Assembly: GCF_947331435.1 (NCBI RefSeq)
Contig: NZ_CAMZOF010000007.1
Location: 248,001 to 312,000 of the forward strand
Reading direction: 5' to 3'
DNA from: Pelagibius sp. Alg239-R121
Lineage (GTDB): Bacteria > Pseudomonadota > Alphaproteobacteria > Kiloniellales > Kiloniellaceae
Length of the DNA: 64,000 nucleotides
Under the pieces are notes generated by a model that searched no databases, was not told where the DNA came from, and saw only the letters and a list, made by a program, of their open reading frames with translations. Positions 16,643-23,467 of the stretch are shown piece by piece; position 1 is the first letter of the stretch; each line of letters begins with the position of its first letter. A program made the position numbers and the translations under genes.

Positions 16643-17425
16643 ATGGCCGAGACCAACACTGCAACCGCTGTCGCCGCCGGGGACTGGACCCCGGAACAGC
16701 CCATCGTGGCGCTGAACGAAGTGCGTAAATCCTTCGGCGACCTGGAGGTCCTGAAGGGCATCACCTTCAATGTGATGAAGGGCGAGGTGATCTGCATCAT
16801 CGGCCCTTCGGGCTCCGGCAAGTCGACGCTCATTCGCTGCGTCAACGCGCTGAACCCGATCGACTCAGGCTCGATCAAGGTGGAGGGGCAAGAGGTCCAC
16901 GACGCCCACCTGGACAAGCTGGCCCTGCGCAAAAAGGTCGGCATGGTGTTCCAGCAGTACAACCTCTTCCCCCACAAGACCGCGATCCAGAACGTCATGA
17001 TGGCGCCGGTCCAGGTCCTGAAACAGGACAAGGCCGAGGTCGAGGAACGGGCGCGCAAACTGATCAAGAAGGTGCGCCTGGAAGGTAAGGAAGACAGCTA
17101 TCCCGGCGAACTCTCCGGCGGCCAGCAACAGCGCGTCGCCATCGCAAGATCACTCGCCATGAACCCGGACATCATGCTGTTCGACGAGGTCACGGCGGCC
17201 CTCGATCCCGAGACGGTCAAGGAAGTGCTGGTCACCATCAAGGAACTGGCCCAGGATGGCATGACCTGCATGCTGGTCACCCACGAGATGGGATTTGCGC
17301 GGGAGGTTGCGGATCATATTTACTTCACGGATCGGGGCGTGATCGTGGAGCACGGGCCGCCGGCAACGTTTTTTAGTGACGCGAAGGACTCAAGGACGCA
17401 GGAGTTTTTGGGGCAGATTTTATAG
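16643..17425 (+). CDS. Polar amino acid ABC transporter ATP-binding protein
   Basis: A 260-residue GlnQ/HisP-type ATPase. Walker A is GPSGSGKST, the Q-loop is MVFQQYNLFPHKT, the signature is LSGGQQQRVAIARSLAMNP, Walker B is IMLFDEVTAALDPE and the switch His is in LVTHEMGFARE. A 20-residue leader precedes the usual PIVALNEVRKSFG start. It completes the SBP, two permeases and ATPase set. The IS5 element begins only 20 nt after its stop, so the downstream end of this operon was probably altered by insertion. Confidence 0.95.
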   Translation: MAETNTATAVAAGDWTPEQPIVALNEVRKSFGDLEVLKGITFNVMKGEVICIIGPSGSGKSTLIRCVNALNPIDSGSIKVEGQEVHDAHLDKLALRKKVGMVFQQYNLFPHKTAIQNVMMAPVQVLKQDKAEVEERARKLIKKVRLEGKEDSYPGELSGGQQQRVAIARSLAMNPDIMLFDEVTAALDPETVKEVLVTIKELAQDGMTCMLVTHEMGFAREVADHIYFTDRGVIVEHGPPATFFSDAKDSRTQEFLGQIL

Positions 17426-17445
17426 GTAAATTCTTTTAGTTCTTA

Positions 17446-18285
17446 GGCTCCGGACCCATAAAATGGGTTCCCTATCGAATGGATTTGTGATTCAAGGTTT
17501 CCGAAGGGAGCCCCATGATGGATCACGACTATTTTTGGCTCGACGACACGCAGTTTTCTCGGCTTGAACCGCTGCTACCGACCGATACACGTGGCGTGCC
17601 GCGTGTTGATGACCGTCGGGTTATCAGCGGGATCGTCCATGTCTTGAAGAGCGGCGGACGTTGGGTCGATGCGCCGGCCGTCTATGGGCCGCGCAAAACG
17701 CTCTACAATCGGTTTGTGCGTTGGGCGGCCAAAGGCGTATGGGCGGAAATCTTTCATGCTCTGGCCTCGGCCGGTGGCCCACCGGCGGAATTTCTGATCG
17801 ATTCATCGGCAGTAAAGGCTCACCGCTGCGCTTCGGGCGCTAAAGGGGGGAGCTCAGCCAGGCCATAGGCCGCTCGCGCGGCGGGCGCACCACTAAGATC
17901 CACGCCCTGACTGACCGCCACTGCCGTCCCATAGCCTTCCACCTGACCGGTGGCCAGGTGGCAGATTGCACAGCGGCCGATGCTCTGCTGGAGCTCATGC
18001 CAGAAATCGAAATTCTTCACGGCGACAAAGGCTATGACAGCGATGCCGTACGGCGGAAGATCGAGAGCAAAGGTGCCGCCCCGAACATCCCACCCAAAGT
18101 CAACAAGCGATGGAAGAACTGCTTCTCGCCAGCACTCTACCGGTCACGAAACGCCATCGAGCGTATGTTCGGACGCCTCAAGGACTTCAGAAGAATCGCA
18201 ACTCGATACGACCGTCTCGCAAAAAACTTCCTCGCCGCTGTCTGTCTCGCTGCGACTGTATGTTACTGGTTATGAGTCTGGAGCC
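17446..18285 (+). mobile_element. IS5-family (IS427-group-like) insertion sequence
   Basis: An 840-bp element bounded by imperfect 16-bp inverted repeats, GGCTCCGGACCCATAA at 17446-17461 and the complement of GGCTCCAGACTCATAA at 18270-18285 (14 of 16 match). A TA dinucleotide flanks both ends (17444-17445 and 18286-18287), consistent with the TA duplication of this group. It carries one transposase in two frames. It marks the left edge of an AT-rich islet. Confidence 0.9.
17515..18275 (+). CDS. IS5-family DDE transposase, two frames joined by a -1 shift
   Basis: The first frame (17515-17868) encodes the N-terminal part with DYFWLDDTQFSRLEPLLP and the first catalytic Asp in FLIDSSAVKAHR. The second frame, open from about 17844 and ending at 18275, continues with QAIGRSRGGRTTKIHALTD, the second Asp in HGDKGYDSDAVR and the Glu in RNAIERMFGRLKDFRR. 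The join requires a -1 shift in the run AAAGGGGGG at 17842-17850. This is the usual position for programmed frameshifting in IS427-group elements. The catalytic DDE triad is complete across the fusion, so the element may be active rather than decayed. Confidence 0.88.
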
Positions 18286-18465
18286 TAGTCCGATTTCCTC
18301 GGCTTGCGTTTTAGGTATTTGAGCAGATCCGCGAACACATGTCTGGTATCTACCTCTATTTACATGACAGAGCGTTCATCGGTGTTGAAATTGGTGAGAA
18401 AATATGCGACTTATACGATATTGAAAATACTTTTTATTAACAATAGGTGGTGTGGGGGCGGAGAC

Positions 18466-18858
18466 GTGACTAAAGCCTGTAGGCTTATGGCCATAGCAAT
18501 CCTTTATTTGGTGTCTTGTAATCACTCATTGTTTGCCGCGGAGAAAATATCTGAATTTAAGCCTAATCAAGCGCTAGTCGTCTGGGAGTCTGAGGCTATA
18601 GCAACTGACAACAATGGCGTTCTTCAGAGGAAGTTATTAGGGACAGTTTTGGATACATTTATGTGCACCTTATCAGGTTCAGGGTTTTATCGACATGGAG
18701 ACCCAAACAGAGGGTGGTTACAATGTCGAGTTCGAACAGAGGGGGCCAATTGGTATTTGGAAGCAGACGGACCATCACACAATCAAGGTACAGGTGGAGG
18801 AGCCGCTCAGTCCCAATGCCGAGCAATTTGTATAGGGACGAGTGTTCCTAACAATTAG
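18466..18858 (+). CDS. Predicted secreted orphan protein
   Basis: About 130 residues if started at the GTG at 18466 (preceded by GCGGAG, short spacer), or 123 from the ATG at 18487. Either start gives a signal peptide: a Lys/Arg N-region, hydrophobic LMAIAILYLVSC, and a likely cut after SLFAA. The mature part (EKISEFKPNQALVVWESEA...) holds four cysteines in a C-terminal half rich in Gly, Ser and Asn, suggesting disulfides in the periplasm. I do not recognise a family. It is AT-rich like the operon that follows, and lies on the opposite strand, tail to tail with it. Confidence 0.55.
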   Translation: MTKACRLMAIAILYLVSCNHSLFAAEKISEFKPNQALVVWESEAIATDNNGVLQRKLLGTVLDTFMCTLSGSGFYRHGDPNRGWLQCRVRTEGANWYLEADGPSHNQGTGGGAAQSQCRAICIGTSVPNN

Positions 18859-19042
18859 CTTTACGAAAAAAACTAGAAGCTCCTCGTTTTGTTACATGTC
18901 GTGGTGTGCGCTTTGCGAGTACCTCTTATTGGTTCGAGGTGAATGGCTTGTGTTGATAAAGTCATGGCGCTACCCACTCGCTAAAGACTGCTTGCATTTG
19001 TAGCGTCAGTTTCTTTTGTCTATTGTCTACACAATGAGTATT

Positions 19043-19738
19043 TTAGATGTCCATCCGCCCGGGGCCGTTCGACCATTCAATGGTGCGCCTGAAGCGACCA
19101 TTGCTCTGCTCAATGTTCCAAAATCTCTTCTCGTGACTTTTTAGGCTTAACTTTTCATATAGTTGATCTTTATCAATAATGTTATAGATTAGATGCAGAA
19201 TAGGCGCGTGATCGCCAGGATAGTACTCGTCGGTAATGTTTTGACTTGACGCAAGATGCAACGACATCGCTGTCTCTTCAACGACGTACGCGCGCGACCT
19301 GGCGATTAGATCATCTTTAGTTAAATGACTAATGCCGGGACGGGATCGCTTTATAAAGTGATCTGTTCTTTCGCGAACCGCGGCTACAAGCGTATGTTCA
19401 CTGACGATAAGCATATAGACGCGTCTTAAGATATCAATAAACTCTGGCGTACAGAATTGCCTCCACGACTGGACCAAGACCTCTAGCTTGCCTTTTTCGG
19501 ATCTTTGTATCGCGTTCTCAACATAACGAAATCGGTCTCTAACTAGCTTATAAATCTCGTTTGGATCATCATCAAAAACCGGACGATTGTAACAATACAA
19601 ATCATCTGCAAGGACAATATGGAGGCGAGCATGAATCTTTGCACACATCGCAATTGTGCTTATGAGATAATCTCGGTCAAATGCTTGGCTGTCCATGCTC
19701 ACAACCGTCATTGCATTCTTGCCAAAGCGCCCAATCAT
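19043..19738 (-). CDS. Putative tRNA-dependent cyclodipeptide synthase (XYP type)
   Basis: A 231-residue protein that I read as a cyclodipeptide synthase, a class that uses two aminoacyl-tRNAs to make a 2,5-diketopiperazine. The family's nucleophile pattern S-x-x-(N or X)-x-x-F appears as SMDSQAF (Ser14, Ser17, Phe20). Y-x-x-x-E appears as YVVEE (Tyr151, Glu155). The XYP signature appears as DEYYPG (Tyr173-Pro174). Spacing between Ser and Tyr (137) is close to the 141 of AlbC, and total length matches. A basic helix RDRFRYVENAI (67-77) fits the tRNA-binding patch. The N-terminus before Ser14 is shorter than usual. The ATG overlaps the upstream stop (ATGA). It is AT-rich, probably acquired. 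If this reading is wrong I have no other family. Confidence 0.68.
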   Translation of the reverse strand: MIGRFGKNAMTVVSMDSQAFDRDYLISTIAMCAKIHARLHIVLADDLYCYNRPVFDDDPNEIYKLVRDRFRYVENAIQRSEKGKLEVLVQSWRQFCTPEFIDILRRVYMLIVSEHTLVAAVRERTDHFIKRSRPGISHLTKDDLIARSRAYVVEETAMSLHLASSQNITDEYYPGDHAPILHLIYNIIDKDQLYEKLSLKSHEKRFWNIEQSNGRFRRTIEWSNGPGRMDI

Positions 19739-20259
19739 GGTCCCAATTCCGGCGGCGGAGCTGGCGAAGGGTTCAATATGTATTTTATTAAACCAACAAT
19801 AACGAATAATAAGAAGGAGGCGACGGTGAAAAAGGCAAAAATAGCTATTAGAGCCTTTTTTACGGGATCGACTATATCTTGGTTCAAGTTAAGCACTGGA
19901 AACGTCGAAGGATCTTGGTTAGAAGATTTTTCAATTACAACACCCAGGTAAGGTGTTTTAATCTTTAAGCTCGATGCGTCAACTATTTCAATTTTTTGAC
20001 TACGATCATCAGAAAACAGTTCATCCTGAATCCTATCGAAGCCAAATCCAATAACCAAAAAAACGAATAATATTAAAGCTGTAAGTCCCAAGTTTCCAAA
20101 AAAGAGGCTTCCAACAACAAGCCTCAGCCTAGTGTTCTTTTCTGGTGACCCAATATCAATTTTATTGAGCCATCGAAATAGCGTAACTCTAATTTTGGTT
20201 AATCCACCAAATAGCAATGCGATTAAGGTCGCTAGTGCGACGTACTCTTGTATCCCCAT
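19735..20259 (-). CDS. Three-helix membrane protein of unknown function
   Basis: About 174 residues from the ATG at 20257-20259, which has GGGAGG 7 nt upstream; an ATG 7 codons earlier is less likely. Predicted helices are YVALATLIALLFGGLTKI (near the N-terminus), LGLTALILFVFLVIGFGF (about 57-74) and LIAIFAFFTVASFLLFVIVG (about 137-156). A hydrophilic segment of about 60 residues between helices 2 and 3 would face one side of the membrane. The tail is Pro-rich (PSPAPPPELGP). It lies 39 nt after the symporter stop and overlaps the cyclodipeptide synthase start by 4 nt, so tight co-expression is expected. No family recognised; an accessory or docking subunit is a guess. Confidence 0.75.
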   Translation of the reverse strand: MGIQEYVALATLIALLFGGLTKIRVTLFRWLNKIDIGSPEKNTRLRLVVGSLFFGNLGLTALILFVFLVIGFGFDRIQDELFSDDRSQKIEIVDASSLKIKTPYLGVVIEKSSNQDPSTFPVLNLNQDIVDPVKKALIAIFAFFTVASFLLFVIVGLIKYILNPSPAPPPELGP

Positions 20260-20298
20260 GATAACACCCTCCCTTCCCATTCTTGGGAAATTAGAACC

Positions 20299-21771
20299 CT
20301 AACGGTGCAATTTTGAATAGGTTAATCCAATAAAAAGGCTTGCAGGGGCAGCGGCAACCGAGAATAAGCTTGGCAAACCTCCTTCTATCAGGCCTTGAAT
20401 GGTCATGGCTAGATACACGGCAGCCGGCAAAACGACATCTGTAGGACCGACGCTTTGCAAGTTGATCGATCGCAAAACTGCAGGAAAAACAACAGCGGGA
20501 AGGCCTAAGCAAATGAAGACGAGATTTTGATCATTTACAGAGAAAAAAACTGCAGCCCAAGTCGCCGCAAAAACCAAAAAAAATGACATTGCAGTTATCG
20601 CCAGCATCCTCGTTTTATTCATTTCCCAGCGGCGTAACGAGTTTGTTTTTGCGCAAAATAGAAACAGGCGTTTCAACGCAAAAAACTGATTGTCAGAGGT
20701 CGAAAGCATGGCGGCAAGCATACCCAATACTAAAACTGGTAGCATGAAAGCGGACACTCGAACGATTTCAATGACCTCAACAACAGATGTTGCTGGTCTG
20801 CCAATTACGACCGGTACAAGCATTCCTACAAGCACAAGTAAAAGCCAGACAGGGATCGCGTATACAGTGGCCCGAAAAAGTCGCGAAGCAGCAAGATTTT
20901 GATGTTTCTTATCGTCAGAGAACGCTGACATTCGAAGCCAAAGGTCGTCACGACCGATGTGGTAAATAGCATTAACTGAAAAAATGTTTAGAATAAAAAA
21001 ACAAAGAATGATCGGATCATTCTGTGGAGCCAATTGAATCGATTTTACTACATTGTCAATGTTGCCAGATGTGTTGTAAGCGAGCCCAATAGTTACGACG
21101 GCGACAACCGCGACAGATAGAATTATGAATGGCCAGTACAATGCATCTGTTGCGATAACACCTTGCATACCAAAACGAAGGACAAACTGCACAAGAAGAG
21201 CGGTTAAAGTTCCGGCGATAACGCCGATATGGATTGCATGTTCAGGTGAAAAGCTAATGCCAAAAACAACACCGGCAAATACAGATGACAATATTTTTAT
21301 TTCCAGCCAAATTACTGCTGATATATTTATTATGGACAGTATTTTGACAAATCGAGTTGTAGTGATACCAGCGTTTGCTCCAACCAATGCTGCCATAAGT
21401 CCAATTGACAGAGCTTCCCGGCCTTTGCGTTCTTTGCTGATATTATTAGTGGCTTTTTTAGCTAGTTTCTGACCGATGAAGCCACCAAGTGGAAACGCAA
21501 TTAGTGTCGCGAGCATTGCGAATCCAAAATAAGGGTATTGAAGCAGAAAGAATATGTAAACAGAAGCAAGGGATGTAAGTGTGCTTCCAACTGTCGAGTA
21601 AAGAAAAAAATTACTCGATCTAATTTGTGGATCTATACTTATATCGCTAGGATTGTTTGTCTGGTTACGTTTGATTTTCAAAGCGATGTTTAGTACATAA
21701 GCTCCGCCAAACAAAAATGACGATGTAATAATCAAAACAGCCGATGATAAAATTGCTTCTAGTGCTGACAT
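20299..21771 (-). CDS. Sodium:solute symporter (SSS)-like transporter
   Basis: About 490 residues with roughly 12-13 hydrophobic helices. Two stretches resemble SSS family landmarks: GRDDLWLRMSAFSDDKK (about 273-289), like the D-x-W-Q-R motif, and GMLAAMLSTSDNQF (about 350-363), like the AA-x-x-STADS sodium-site helix. The start ATG at 21769-21771 follows GGGGA with a 7-nt spacer. It is the first gene of a leftward operon ending with the cyclodipeptide synthase, so import of a precursor or movement of the cyclic dipeptide is the natural hypothesis. It is divergent from typical SSS proteins, and the substrate cannot be named. Confidence 0.75.
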   Translation of the reverse strand: MSALEAILSSAVLIITSSFLFGGAYVLNIALKIKRNQTNNPSDISIDPQIRSSNFFLYSTVGSTLTSLASVYIFFLLQYPYFGFAMLATLIAFPLGGFIGQKLAKKATNNISKERKGREALSIGLMAALVGANAGITTTRFVKILSIINISAVIWLEIKILSSVFAGVVFGISFSPEHAIHIGVIAGTLTALLVQFVLRFGMQGVIATDALYWPFIILSVAVVAVVTIGLAYNTSGNIDNVVKSIQLAPQNDPIILCFFILNIFSVNAIYHIGRDDLWLRMSAFSDDKKHQNLAASRLFRATVYAIPVWLLLVLVGMLVPVVIGRPATSVVEVIEIVRVSAFMLPVLVLGMLAAMLSTSDNQFFALKRLFLFCAKTNSLRRWEMNKTRMLAITAMSFFLVFAATWAAVFFSVNDQNLVFICLGLPAVVFPAVLRSINLQSVGPTDVVLPAAVYLAMTIQGLIEGGLPSLFSVAAAPASLFIGLTYSKLHR

Positions 21772-21806
21772 TTTGATTTCCCCACAACCAAATAGTGTCG
21801 TTTGCA

Positions 21807-21833
21807 CTTAAAAAGAATCATATTCTCTTTAAG
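21807..21833. promoter_or_regulatory. Imperfect palindrome upstream of the symporter/CDPS operon
   Basis: CTTAAAAAGAAT, CAT, ATTCTCTTTAAG: 12-bp arms matching at 11 positions, 36 nt upstream of the symporter start codon. Candidate operator or promoter-associated dyad. No regulator gene is adjacent. Confidence 0.4.
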
Positions 21834-21931
21834 GGTAAAATGCGTCTATAAGAAGATTAAACAGTATCACGATAACGCAATACGTGAAATTGTAAATTGA
21901 GGTGAGGTGATTTTGCCTCTCTCTACGGGGG

Positions 21932-22387
21932 CAATCTGAGTGTAGAGAGGCCTGCTGCCGCGAATTGCAGGAACATCTGGACTGCGAAAACGTGGTGCTG
22001 ACCCTCAGCAAGGACGGCGTCGCGTTGCTGGACCGCGAAGGCAATTTCGCCATGCTGCCCGCCATGATCCGCTTCGTCCATGACGCGGCGAGCGCAGGCG
22101 ACACGGTGGTGAGCGTGCTGGCTGCGGCTATGGCTTCGGGCGCTTCTCTGTTCGAAGCTGTGACGTTGGTCAACCTTGAGCTGTTTGCGTTTAAGTCGAC
22201 TCAAAATCCGCTGCCTCTCAACCAGCATGCTGCTGCTTTCGAATGCAGATTTTAAGAACCTTTTGGTTTCAGAAAAACACAAACCGCTATAGCCGGTGGC
22301 GTAATCTGTGAGAAGGTCGGTGTTCAGCCGGTCACCGTTGAGGAGACCCGGCTGGCTCTGGGGTACTTTGCTGATGGAATGGCGTAG
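21932..22387 (+). pseudogene. Remnant of hldE/rfaE-like heptose kinase domain
   Basis: A fragment of a PfkB-type kinase resembling the kinase domain of HldE. It reads RELQEHLDCENVVLTLSKDG, LLDREGNFAMLPAM, then SAGDTVVSVLAAAMASGAS (the anion-hole motif, normally GAGDT) and LFEAVTLVNLE. After an in-frame 110-bp insertion with a TAA at 22253-22255, it resumes as AGGVICEKVGVQPVTVEE and ends at TAG 22385-22387. The N-terminal ribokinase half and the nucleotidyltransferase domain are absent. It is GC-rich relative to the islet on its left, so the acquired region probably landed in or near this gene. Confidence 0.75.
22179..22288. repeat. About 110-bp palindromic insertion inside the hldE remnant
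   Basis: Ends AGCTGTTTGCGTTT (22179-22192) and AAACACAAACCGCT (22275-22288) are inverted repeats matching at 12 of 14. An inner pair AAAATCCGC (22203-22211) and GCAGATTTT (22245-22253) matches at 8 of 9. The insertion interrupts the kinase alignment between VNLE and AGGVICEK but keeps the frame. Resembles a MITE or an in-gene palindromic element. Confidence 0.5.
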
Positions 22388-22566
22388 CGGCGGCGATAGG
22401 TGGGGTCTCGTCTCATACTTGTTAGGTATAGCGGGCTCCTGCGTTGCACGCTGTGATTGCCGAATCTTATGCCGTATCATGTTTCTGGAGTTTCCCCGTA
22501 ACGGGAAACTCAGCGATCCTGCAAGCGCGATGATCGTGGAGAGCAGGCTTTCGGGGAGAGCAAGCC

Positions 22567-23193
22567 ATGGCGATCAGTCTCAATGAATTCGATCTCGGCC
22601 GGGATCGCGAGATCTGGTATCCCAATCTCCAAACCTGCCTGGGTTTTACCGTGGTGCTGGACGATGGCACGCTGCTGGGCACGCATATGACCGCGGGCAC
22701 GACGCTGCGCGTGATTCAATACACCTGCGAATACTTCGAGCAGCAGCGAGGAGCAGCCAATATCCTCAGCATGCTTCTGATTGGCAATATCAGCGATTGG
22801 AACACGCATCGCGAATCCCTGCTGCGCACCGGTGGCAATCTGCGTGAGACCCTCCGCGCCGCGATGAACACGGATTGCGTCATCTACCAATACGATTCAG
22901 TCTGTGCCGAGTCCGGCGGTATTGGGGCCGCGGCACATCTGCGGCACAAAGGCGGCGCCCATCCCTATCCCGATGTCGAGCTGGTGAAAGAGGGGGATTG
23001 GTCATTCTTCATGAACTTCGACCCGGGACATGCGGCCGTACAAAACCTGGAGATCAAACATGTGTACGTGCCGAGCATCCTGGCGGCCCAGGCCGGTGCG
23101 ATACACGGCGTGCAGGCGCCGCAGATCGTGAGGATGGTGCGTGCGACCGGTGATAAAACCGCGATCGAAGAAGGTGAGATGGAGAGGACGTAG
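22567..23193 (+). CDS. Conserved hypothetical protein, no signal or membrane segment
   Basis: A 208-residue soluble-looking protein starting MAISLNEFDLGRDREIWYPN. Readable features are CLGFTVVLDDGTLLGTHMT (a beta strand, turn, Gly-Thr-His pattern vaguely like CheD/deamidase folds), a central region with several Cys (TDCVIYQYDSVCAESGG) and IVRMVRATGDKTAIEEGEM at the end. No confident family. The codon use is like the GC-rich chromosome, unlike the islet to its left. It could be part of a locus with the PAS protein 275 nt downstream, but nothing shows this. The CheD-like reading is weak. Confidence 0.6.
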   Translation: MAISLNEFDLGRDREIWYPNLQTCLGFTVVLDDGTLLGTHMTAGTTLRVIQYTCEYFEQQRGAANILSMLLIGNISDWNTHRESLLRTGGNLRETLRAAMNTDCVIYQYDSVCAESGGIGAAAHLRHKGGAHPYPDVELVKEGDWSFFMNFDPGHAAVQNLEIKHVYVPSILAAQAGAIHGVQAPQIVRMVRATGDKTAIEEGEMERT

Positions 23194-23467
23194 CTCCACT
23201 GGATGGCGGCGGCAGTCCGTGACAGCGGTCTTACACCCTCGGATCCATCTGGAGGATCTTCGCAGAGCTTCTGTAGATCCAGTTCGCAGGTATGGCCTGC
23301 AGGCCGTTACCCTGTGCCAGGCAGGCGCGGGCGGATGAGGATTGCCGGGTTCGCCGGGTTTGCCTGTGTTCTGGTACCGATTGAAACGATGTTTTTTTAC
23401 CCTTTTATTATATTCTTCGGCTAAGTTATTTCTGTTGTTGATTGTGATAGACCTGAAGTAAACCGCG

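Follow-up and report, generated by a model that had tools for sequence, protein, structure and literature searches.

The 64,000-nt window, the whole stretch of DNA analysed here, carries an AT-rich islet bordered by an insertion sequence (IS) on one side and a broken gene on the other (table 1). The islet contains a three-gene operon, in which a 490-aa membrane protein gene is followed after a gap of 39 bp by a 174-aa membrane protein gene and, last, by the gene that is our subject, a homologue of cyclodipeptide synthases (CDPSs), whose product we call the query. The stop of the 174-aa gene overlaps the start of the CDPS gene in the sequence ATGA, and purine-rich sites precede the 490-aa and 174-aa genes. 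Across the interval occupied by the CDPS frame, the opposite strand has many stops. No tRNA gene was found within the window. Promoter-like sites showed no excess (9 vs. a shuffle mean of 8.0), and terminator-like sites were somewhat more frequent than in shuffles (7 vs. a mean of 4.1, sd 1.6).

Table 1. Position of the operon, the islet, and its borders in the 64,000-nt window
Feature	Position	Strand	Basis or remark
IS5-family element, 840 bp	17446..18285	+	Pfam/NCBIfam IS5 matches; transposase in two frames
AT-rich islet	18286..21946	.	GC 0.423 vs. 0.562 for the window
Open frame, 184 aa, AT-rich	18304..18858	+	between IS and operon; not known to be part of the latter
Divergent XYP-side CDPS homologue, 231 aa	19043..19738 (ATG 19738, stop ends 19043)	-	profile, alignment, tree
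Membrane protein, 174 aa, ~3 transmembrane helices	19735..20259 (ATG 20259)	-	hydropathy
Polytopic membrane protein, transporter-like, 490 aa, first operon gene	20299..21771 (ATG 21771)	-	hydropathy
PfkB-type kinase gene remnant (named by eye), right islet edge	21947..22150	+	comparison with sister genome G001

The initial annotation had placed the CDPS gene in an acquired islet, and several features agree with this. Besides the low overall GC content (0.42 vs. 0.56), third-position GC is 0.35-0.47 in four islet frames versus 0.68-0.83 in four flanking genes. The 840-bp IS at the left end is flanked by TA direct repeats and has imperfect 18-bp terminal repeats (14/18), and the PfkB-type remnant at the right edge is 82% identical over 204 bp to a whole gene in G001. 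Three sister genomes have the same flank order, with ABC-transporter genes on the left and a MopJ/PAS-type gene on the right, and other cargo in between. The gap between the ABC-transporter and MopJ/PAS-type genes is a variable site, and by the four genomes sampled from the genus, the CDPS operon is foreign to it; the operon would have come into this site together with the low-GC segment. The cargo of the gap (17421-23392 in the window, and loci L025-L027) differs in each of the four congeneric genomes; what was recognized there by eye includes lipoprotein-like genes, LuxR-type regulators, and a PfkB-type kinase. The 184-aa frame of the islet encodes a signal-peptide-like segment, recognized by eye, and several cysteines; it has no convincing family match.

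The gene had been proposed to encode an XYP-type CDPS on the basis of a small set of residues. Ser14, Ser17, Phe20, Tyr151, Glu155, Tyr173, and Pro174 are all found at the claimed positions of the 231-aa protein, and the spacing of 137 between Ser14 and Tyr151 lies within the range of 122-145 seen in 16 other CDPS-family proteins. A basic helix at residues 67-77 had been listed as well. Basic residues do occur there (three Arg, and seven Lys or Arg within 63-84), but this helix is not the diagnostic part of the protein, because in XYP enzymes the tRNA acceptor stem is described as being gripped by the basic strands β2 and β7 (PMC7566563, PMC13062777).

Both curated CDPS models match the query below their cut-offs: TIGR04539 with 21.7 bits (E 1.2e-4, cut-off 45), which is the sole NCBIfam match up to E 1, and PF16715 of Pfam with 15 bits (E 0.021, cut-off 27). 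Failing these cut-offs reflects a database rule and not a property of the enzyme. They are a weak test here, because only three of the nine other XYP-side proteins pass the cut-off of either model; five of the eight XYP-side proteins of small-genome Alphaproteobacteria fall below both. A search of the query's whole genome with TIGR04539 reported nothing at E 0.001. As the curated cut-offs judge this part of the family poorly, we built a profile without the query. This profile, A2, consists of eight CDPSs from other Alphaproteobacteria that were found with TIGR04539; profile A1 contains the same eight and the query. Two NYH-type loci (L002 and L003) were excluded from both profiles. Starts of loci derived from genomes were set at the earliest Met in each open frame. 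Three loci are the query's own (L001, L012, and L028), and duplicates of other loci (L039, L040, L057-L062, and L066) as well as fragments or weak matches (L041, L063-L065, and L067) were left aside.

Profile A2 matches the query with 40.8 bits (E 8.1e-15 when a single sequence is searched), aligning residues 8-184 with positions 24-201 of a model of 242. Among 20,000 residue shuffles of the query, the best score was 11.8 bits. When the 542 stop-to-stop frames of at least 60 residues in the window were scored with the same profile, the query frame reached 40.2 bits and the runner-up 2.4. Alignment of the query with the eight CDPSs by hhalign gave a probability of 92 and a P value of 6.5e-7. 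An HMM search with the CDPS family, which had been suggested as a check, is positive with the query-free profile and falls short of the cut-off with both curated models. Searches of the PDB with the single sequence returned nothing significant: of the 11 matches up to E 10, an oxidoreductase came first (E 0.55) and Cglo-CDPS second (E 0.64), the latter covering Tyr151, Glu155, and Tyr173-Pro174. With profile A1, CDPS entries made up the first 23 of 24 PDB matches, counting 5mlp and 3oqh, which are labelled uncharacterized; 3oqh (YvmC) we take to be a CDPS. We did not count this result as independent, because it is driven by the other eight rows of the profile. Entry 5mlp is given as Rgry-CDPS in PMC7566563.

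Chance resemblance, or membership in another group of HUP/Rossmann proteins, would agree with the sub-threshold curated scores and with the lack of a significant PDB match to the single sequence. It would also agree with the structure prediction, the other check that had been suggested: AlphaFold2 gave mostly helical models too poor to use, with a pLDDT of 42.2 from the single sequence and of 36.6 when one viral CDPS was added, and the Rossmann fold of CDPSs is unconfirmed. We nevertheless regard such an explanation as highly improbable: the query-free profile scores the protein far above any shuffle, no other frame of the window exceeds 2.4 bits, and the only non-CDPS family match in Pfam, NCBIfam, PADLOC, and PHROGs is to Pfam HGAL (E 0.16, 12.6 bits).

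The catalytic residues are conserved despite a low overall identity of 14-21% between the query and the eight CDPSs. In the alignment of these nine sequences, Ser14, Asp45, Asn51, Trp92, Glu154, and Glu155 are invariant, besides Met1. In a wider alignment of 17 proteins, Ser14 and Glu155 are kept in all 16 others and Tyr151 in 14 of them, the remaining two having Phe. Trp92 is present in 9/9 XYP-side rows, and Tyr173 and Pro174 are each present in 8/9. In the columns of Tyr173 and Pro174, neither Tyr nor Pro occurs in any of the seven NYH rows, which means that the NYH Tyr202 is not aligned with Tyr173 by the automatic procedure; these two residues are therefore backed by the XYP-side rows alone. 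The four residues described as almost strictly conserved in active enzymes (Ser37, Tyr178, Glu182, and Tyr202 in Snou-CDPS numbering; PMC7566563) align with Ser14, Tyr151, Glu155, and Tyr173 of the query. Like the XYP enzymes Rgry-, Nbra-, Fdum-, and Cglo-CDPS, the query thus has the catalytic Ser, the Tyr-x3-Glu motif, and the Tyr-Pro pair, and it shares Asp45, Asn51, and Trp92 with the alphaproteobacterial set. It differs from XYP CDPSs by its low identity to the aligned eight and by the 13 residues that precede its catalytic Ser. The A2 score, the hhalign P value, the match of the XYP Pro and all four catalytic positions in the alignment, and the tree described below all favor the proposed family membership, and the gene most likely encodes a genuine, very divergent CDPS, as far as sequence comparison can tell.

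XYP and NYH enzymes are distinguished by positions 40 and 203, which are X40-P203 in the former and N40-H203 in the latter (PMC13062777). In June 2017, all 765 putative CDPSs were reported to fall into one or the other of these subfamilies (PMC5816076). A third subfamily, RCDPS, has been added since, and is described as lacking sequence homology to NYH or XYP (PMC13062777). By motif the query is of the XYP type, with Ser17, Tyr173, and Pro174 standing for positions 40, 202, and 203. We constructed a tree of 17 proteins, comprising the query, nine XYP-side rows, and seven NYH rows, labelled by motif and by eye; it takes in 4 of the 23 plasmid records matched. The XYP/NYH split has a support of 100/100 and leaves the query with the XYP side, at the end of a branch of 3.37 changes per site versus a median of 0.87. 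A topology with XYP as a closed group and the query outside it is not rejected (p-AU 0.164). XYP-side members left out of the profile scored 95-196 bits; with the XYP-side profile, three NYH proteins scored 38.7-56.1 bits, compared with 40.8 for the query, and a profile of three NYH sequences gave the query -0.6 bits. By these profile scores, the query is therefore about as distant from the XYP-side set as the NYH enzymes are. The XYP assignment of the initial annotation holds by motif and by the side of the tree, and on these sequence criteria the query is a deep member or a near neighbor of the XYP group. The nearest relatives found for it, also on the XYP side, are the CDPSs of small-genome Alphaproteobacteria (L004-L011), of which seven of eight have Tyr-Pro and one (L008) Phe-Ser. 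The genomes of the class that are positive for TIGR04539 are of 0.9-2.0 Mb, whereas the query's genome is of 8.0 Mb. For a family that is used for drug-like cyclic dipeptides, the query extends the sequence range to a region where standard models score below their cut-offs.

The most unusual part of the protein is its N-terminus. The 13 residues before the catalytic Ser are the fewest among the 17 proteins, the others having 19-48. In XYP enzymes, this part of the chain makes up the basic strand β2 (PMC7566563, PMC13062777), and the called start probably leaves out the tRNA-binding strand β2. A variant of Cglo-CDPS without both tRNA-binding strands is reported to be inactive (PMC7566563). Upstream of the ATG, the frame is open for 50 codons with no ATG, GTG, or TTG. 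It includes in frame the sequence NKIHIEPF, which overlaps the preceding gene and by eye resembles the β2 consensus (K-φ-X-F). When upstream residues were added to the query, the A2 scores were 40.7 and 40.2 bits, compared with 40.8 for the called protein. The scores did not improve, and therefore give no sign of a lost N-terminus encoded upstream. Close to the C-terminus, GRFRRTIEW can be compared by eye with the β7 motif L(R/K)FKK; the profile match stops before this, at residue 184. Should the enzyme be active with its short N-terminus, XYP enzymes could bind tRNA without the usual β2 strand.

These observations also bear on whether the gene is in decay or misread, that is, a former CDPS under relaxed selection among the remains of mobile elements, with a truncated N-terminus. 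The IS and the broken PfkB-type gene at the borders of the islet are in line with such a history, as is the startless open stretch with its β2-like sequence. However, the operon consists of three intact and tightly packed frames, with the overlap and the purine-rich sites mentioned above, and the upstream residues bring no gain with the profile. We consider decay or misreading improbable.

The initial annotation had noted that the operon is not the usual combination of a CDPS and an oxidase, and indeed the partners of the CDPS are two membrane proteins. In contrast to CDPS clusters with tailoring enzymes, none of the four scanned frames of the islet belongs to a tailoring family such as the oxidases, P450s, or methyltransferases. 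For the 490-aa protein, family searches gave only weak matches in Pfam (E 0.092), NCBIfam (E 0.0073), and PHROGs (E 0.0092), and none in PADLOC. The 174-aa protein likewise had only weak matches in NCBIfam (E 0.03) and PHROGs (E 0.025), and none in Pfam or PADLOC. The Pfam, NCBIfam, and PADLOC scans used longer readings of both proteins, of 502 and 181 aa, respectively. The 490-aa protein had no sequence match in the PDB up to E 10, and no relatives among the GTDB contigs, plasmids, or IMG/VR. In 239 other genomes of the class, a single weak match was obtained, and was rejected because the frame looks by eye like a histidine kinase.

Transporters, among them sodium/solute symporters, have been described in the vicinity of CDPS genes and interpreted as exporters (PMC4159871), and transporters in this position are also described in PMC5767969. 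Since neighboring transporters are already described, the CDPS-transporter arrangement is not new as such. A transporter-like neighbor is common to the known clusters and to this one, but here both membrane partners are without a recognized family. By eye, the segment LAAMLSTSDNQ of the 490-aa protein aligns weakly with the motif of sodium/solute symporters. Tests did not support this assignment: a profile of five PF00474-family members from the query's own genome scored the protein at -0.9 bits, compared with up to 8.5 in 500 local shuffles, hhalign gave a probability of 0.5, and PF00474 itself had no match to the 502-aa reading up to E 1. A second candidate that we set aside is a fusion of the 174-aa protein with the CDPS by a -1 frameshift at A-AAA-AAG (19861), which is in the right phase. 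It was held unlikely because the heptamer precedes the last predicted membrane helix, so that the enzyme would probably lie outside the cytoplasm.

The membrane partners also enter into an alternative in which the CDPS fold has been kept and its chemistry changed. The protein would then still bind aminoacyl-tRNA but hand the aminoacyl group to another acceptor, such as a lipid or protein at the membrane, or would do no more than sense charged tRNA; its target would be the membrane partners. The long end branch would fit such a shift, as would the shortest N-terminus among the 17 proteins and the presence of membrane proteins in place of tailoring enzymes. Against this, the XYP Pro has been kept along with all four catalytic residues at an overall identity of 14-21% to the eight relatives, which suggests selection on the usual chemistry. 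We view a change of chemistry as unlikely, less so than decay of the gene.

Our preferred reading, to which we assign a probability of roughly 70%, is that the gene encodes a very divergent XYP-side CDPS, and that it belongs to a foreign operon with membrane partners for its product. In the CDPS mechanism as described, the catalytic Ser is loaded by a first aminoacyl-tRNA, a second one extends the bound group, and a Tyr assists cyclization (PMC7566563). By analogy with the family, the query would bind an aminoacyl-tRNA and accept its aminoacyl group on Ser14. A second aminoacyl-tRNA would extend the Ser14-bound group with the participation of Tyr151 and Glu155, and the cyclic dipeptide would be released with the help of Tyr173 in ring closure. 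The two membrane proteins might move or sense this product, export being the likelier role. As proteins without a recognized family, they are candidate transporters or receptors for cyclic dipeptide products. The points of interest of this system are the two membrane partners and how, or whether, tRNA is bound with so short an N-terminus. A more far-reaching picture can be drawn, of a mobile membrane-coupled dipeptide system on a deep unsampled branch beside XYP, in which the tRNA-binding strand would be reduced or replaced, and a new transporter family with a three-helix partner would carry or sense the product with no tailoring enzyme involved. We offer it tentatively, as a rather doubtful extension of the preferred reading.

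No close CDPS relatives were found in the GTDB contigs, IMG/VR, or plasmids. Among 23 genomes of the family and 61 of the order, the protein was detected in its own genome only, and with profile A1 the same was true among 398 genomes of the phylum. Of 385 genomes sampled from the class, nine have a CDPS found by TIGR04539, each of the small size given above. Profile A1 matches 12 of the 385 at E 0.1, a count that includes the query's own genome and three others with weak or fragmentary matches. From searches in small orders around two CDPS genomes (two genomes each), the sole gain was a second fragment in one of these two. No match came from viral scans that used a single CDPS or a tighter CDPS alignment, and two other viral scans led to one and the same contig.

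At six of the eight XYP-side CDPS loci of the small-genome set, the gene immediately upstream, in the same orientation, encodes an XRE-type HTH protein of 213-222 aa and overlaps the CDPS gene or lies within ~20 bp of it (L043 1839-3228, L044 5739-7111, L045 2352-3825, L047 6699-8122, L048 4392-5616, and L050 6439-7850). Of the remaining two, L049 is cut by the contig end and L046 has a gene for an FRG-domain protein upstream. The XRE gene is thus present at six of seven readable loci, where the query has two membrane proteins instead. The XRE-CDPS arrangement resembles a regulator pair or a module of the toxin-antitoxin type; among the papers listed, no description of it appears in titles or abstract openings.

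The contig recovered from IMG/VR, of 55 kb, carries an NYH-type CDPS gene (L030 2962-5214) within a cluster resembling phage recombination genes (nuclease, RecT-like, and SSB, by eye). Genes for a PAS-histidine kinase and a response regulator, also named by eye, come after this cluster. A tblastn search of 50,697 phage records found nothing up to E 0.01. Kinases occur beside CDPSs elsewhere too. At L051 (6640-8880) the CDPS is fused to a PAS/histidine kinase, the kinase part being recognized by eye. At L052 (6333-8247) a PAS/histidine kinase assigned by Pfam is encoded by the adjacent gene, and at L042 (3881-6521) the neighboring kinase begins with a PQ-loop segment (Pfam). The association of CDPSs with PAS/histidine kinases suggests a signalling pair based on cyclic dipeptides. 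The CDPS-like protein of this last locus (L042 3881-4693), of 270 aa and XYP by motif, is encoded on a plasmid of Candidatus Endohaliclona renieramycinifaciens (MK748464.1) and annotated as a hypothetical protein. Its TIGR04539 score is 22.4 bits against the cut-off of 45, comparable to the 21.7 bits of the query, and PF16715 does not match it up to E 1.
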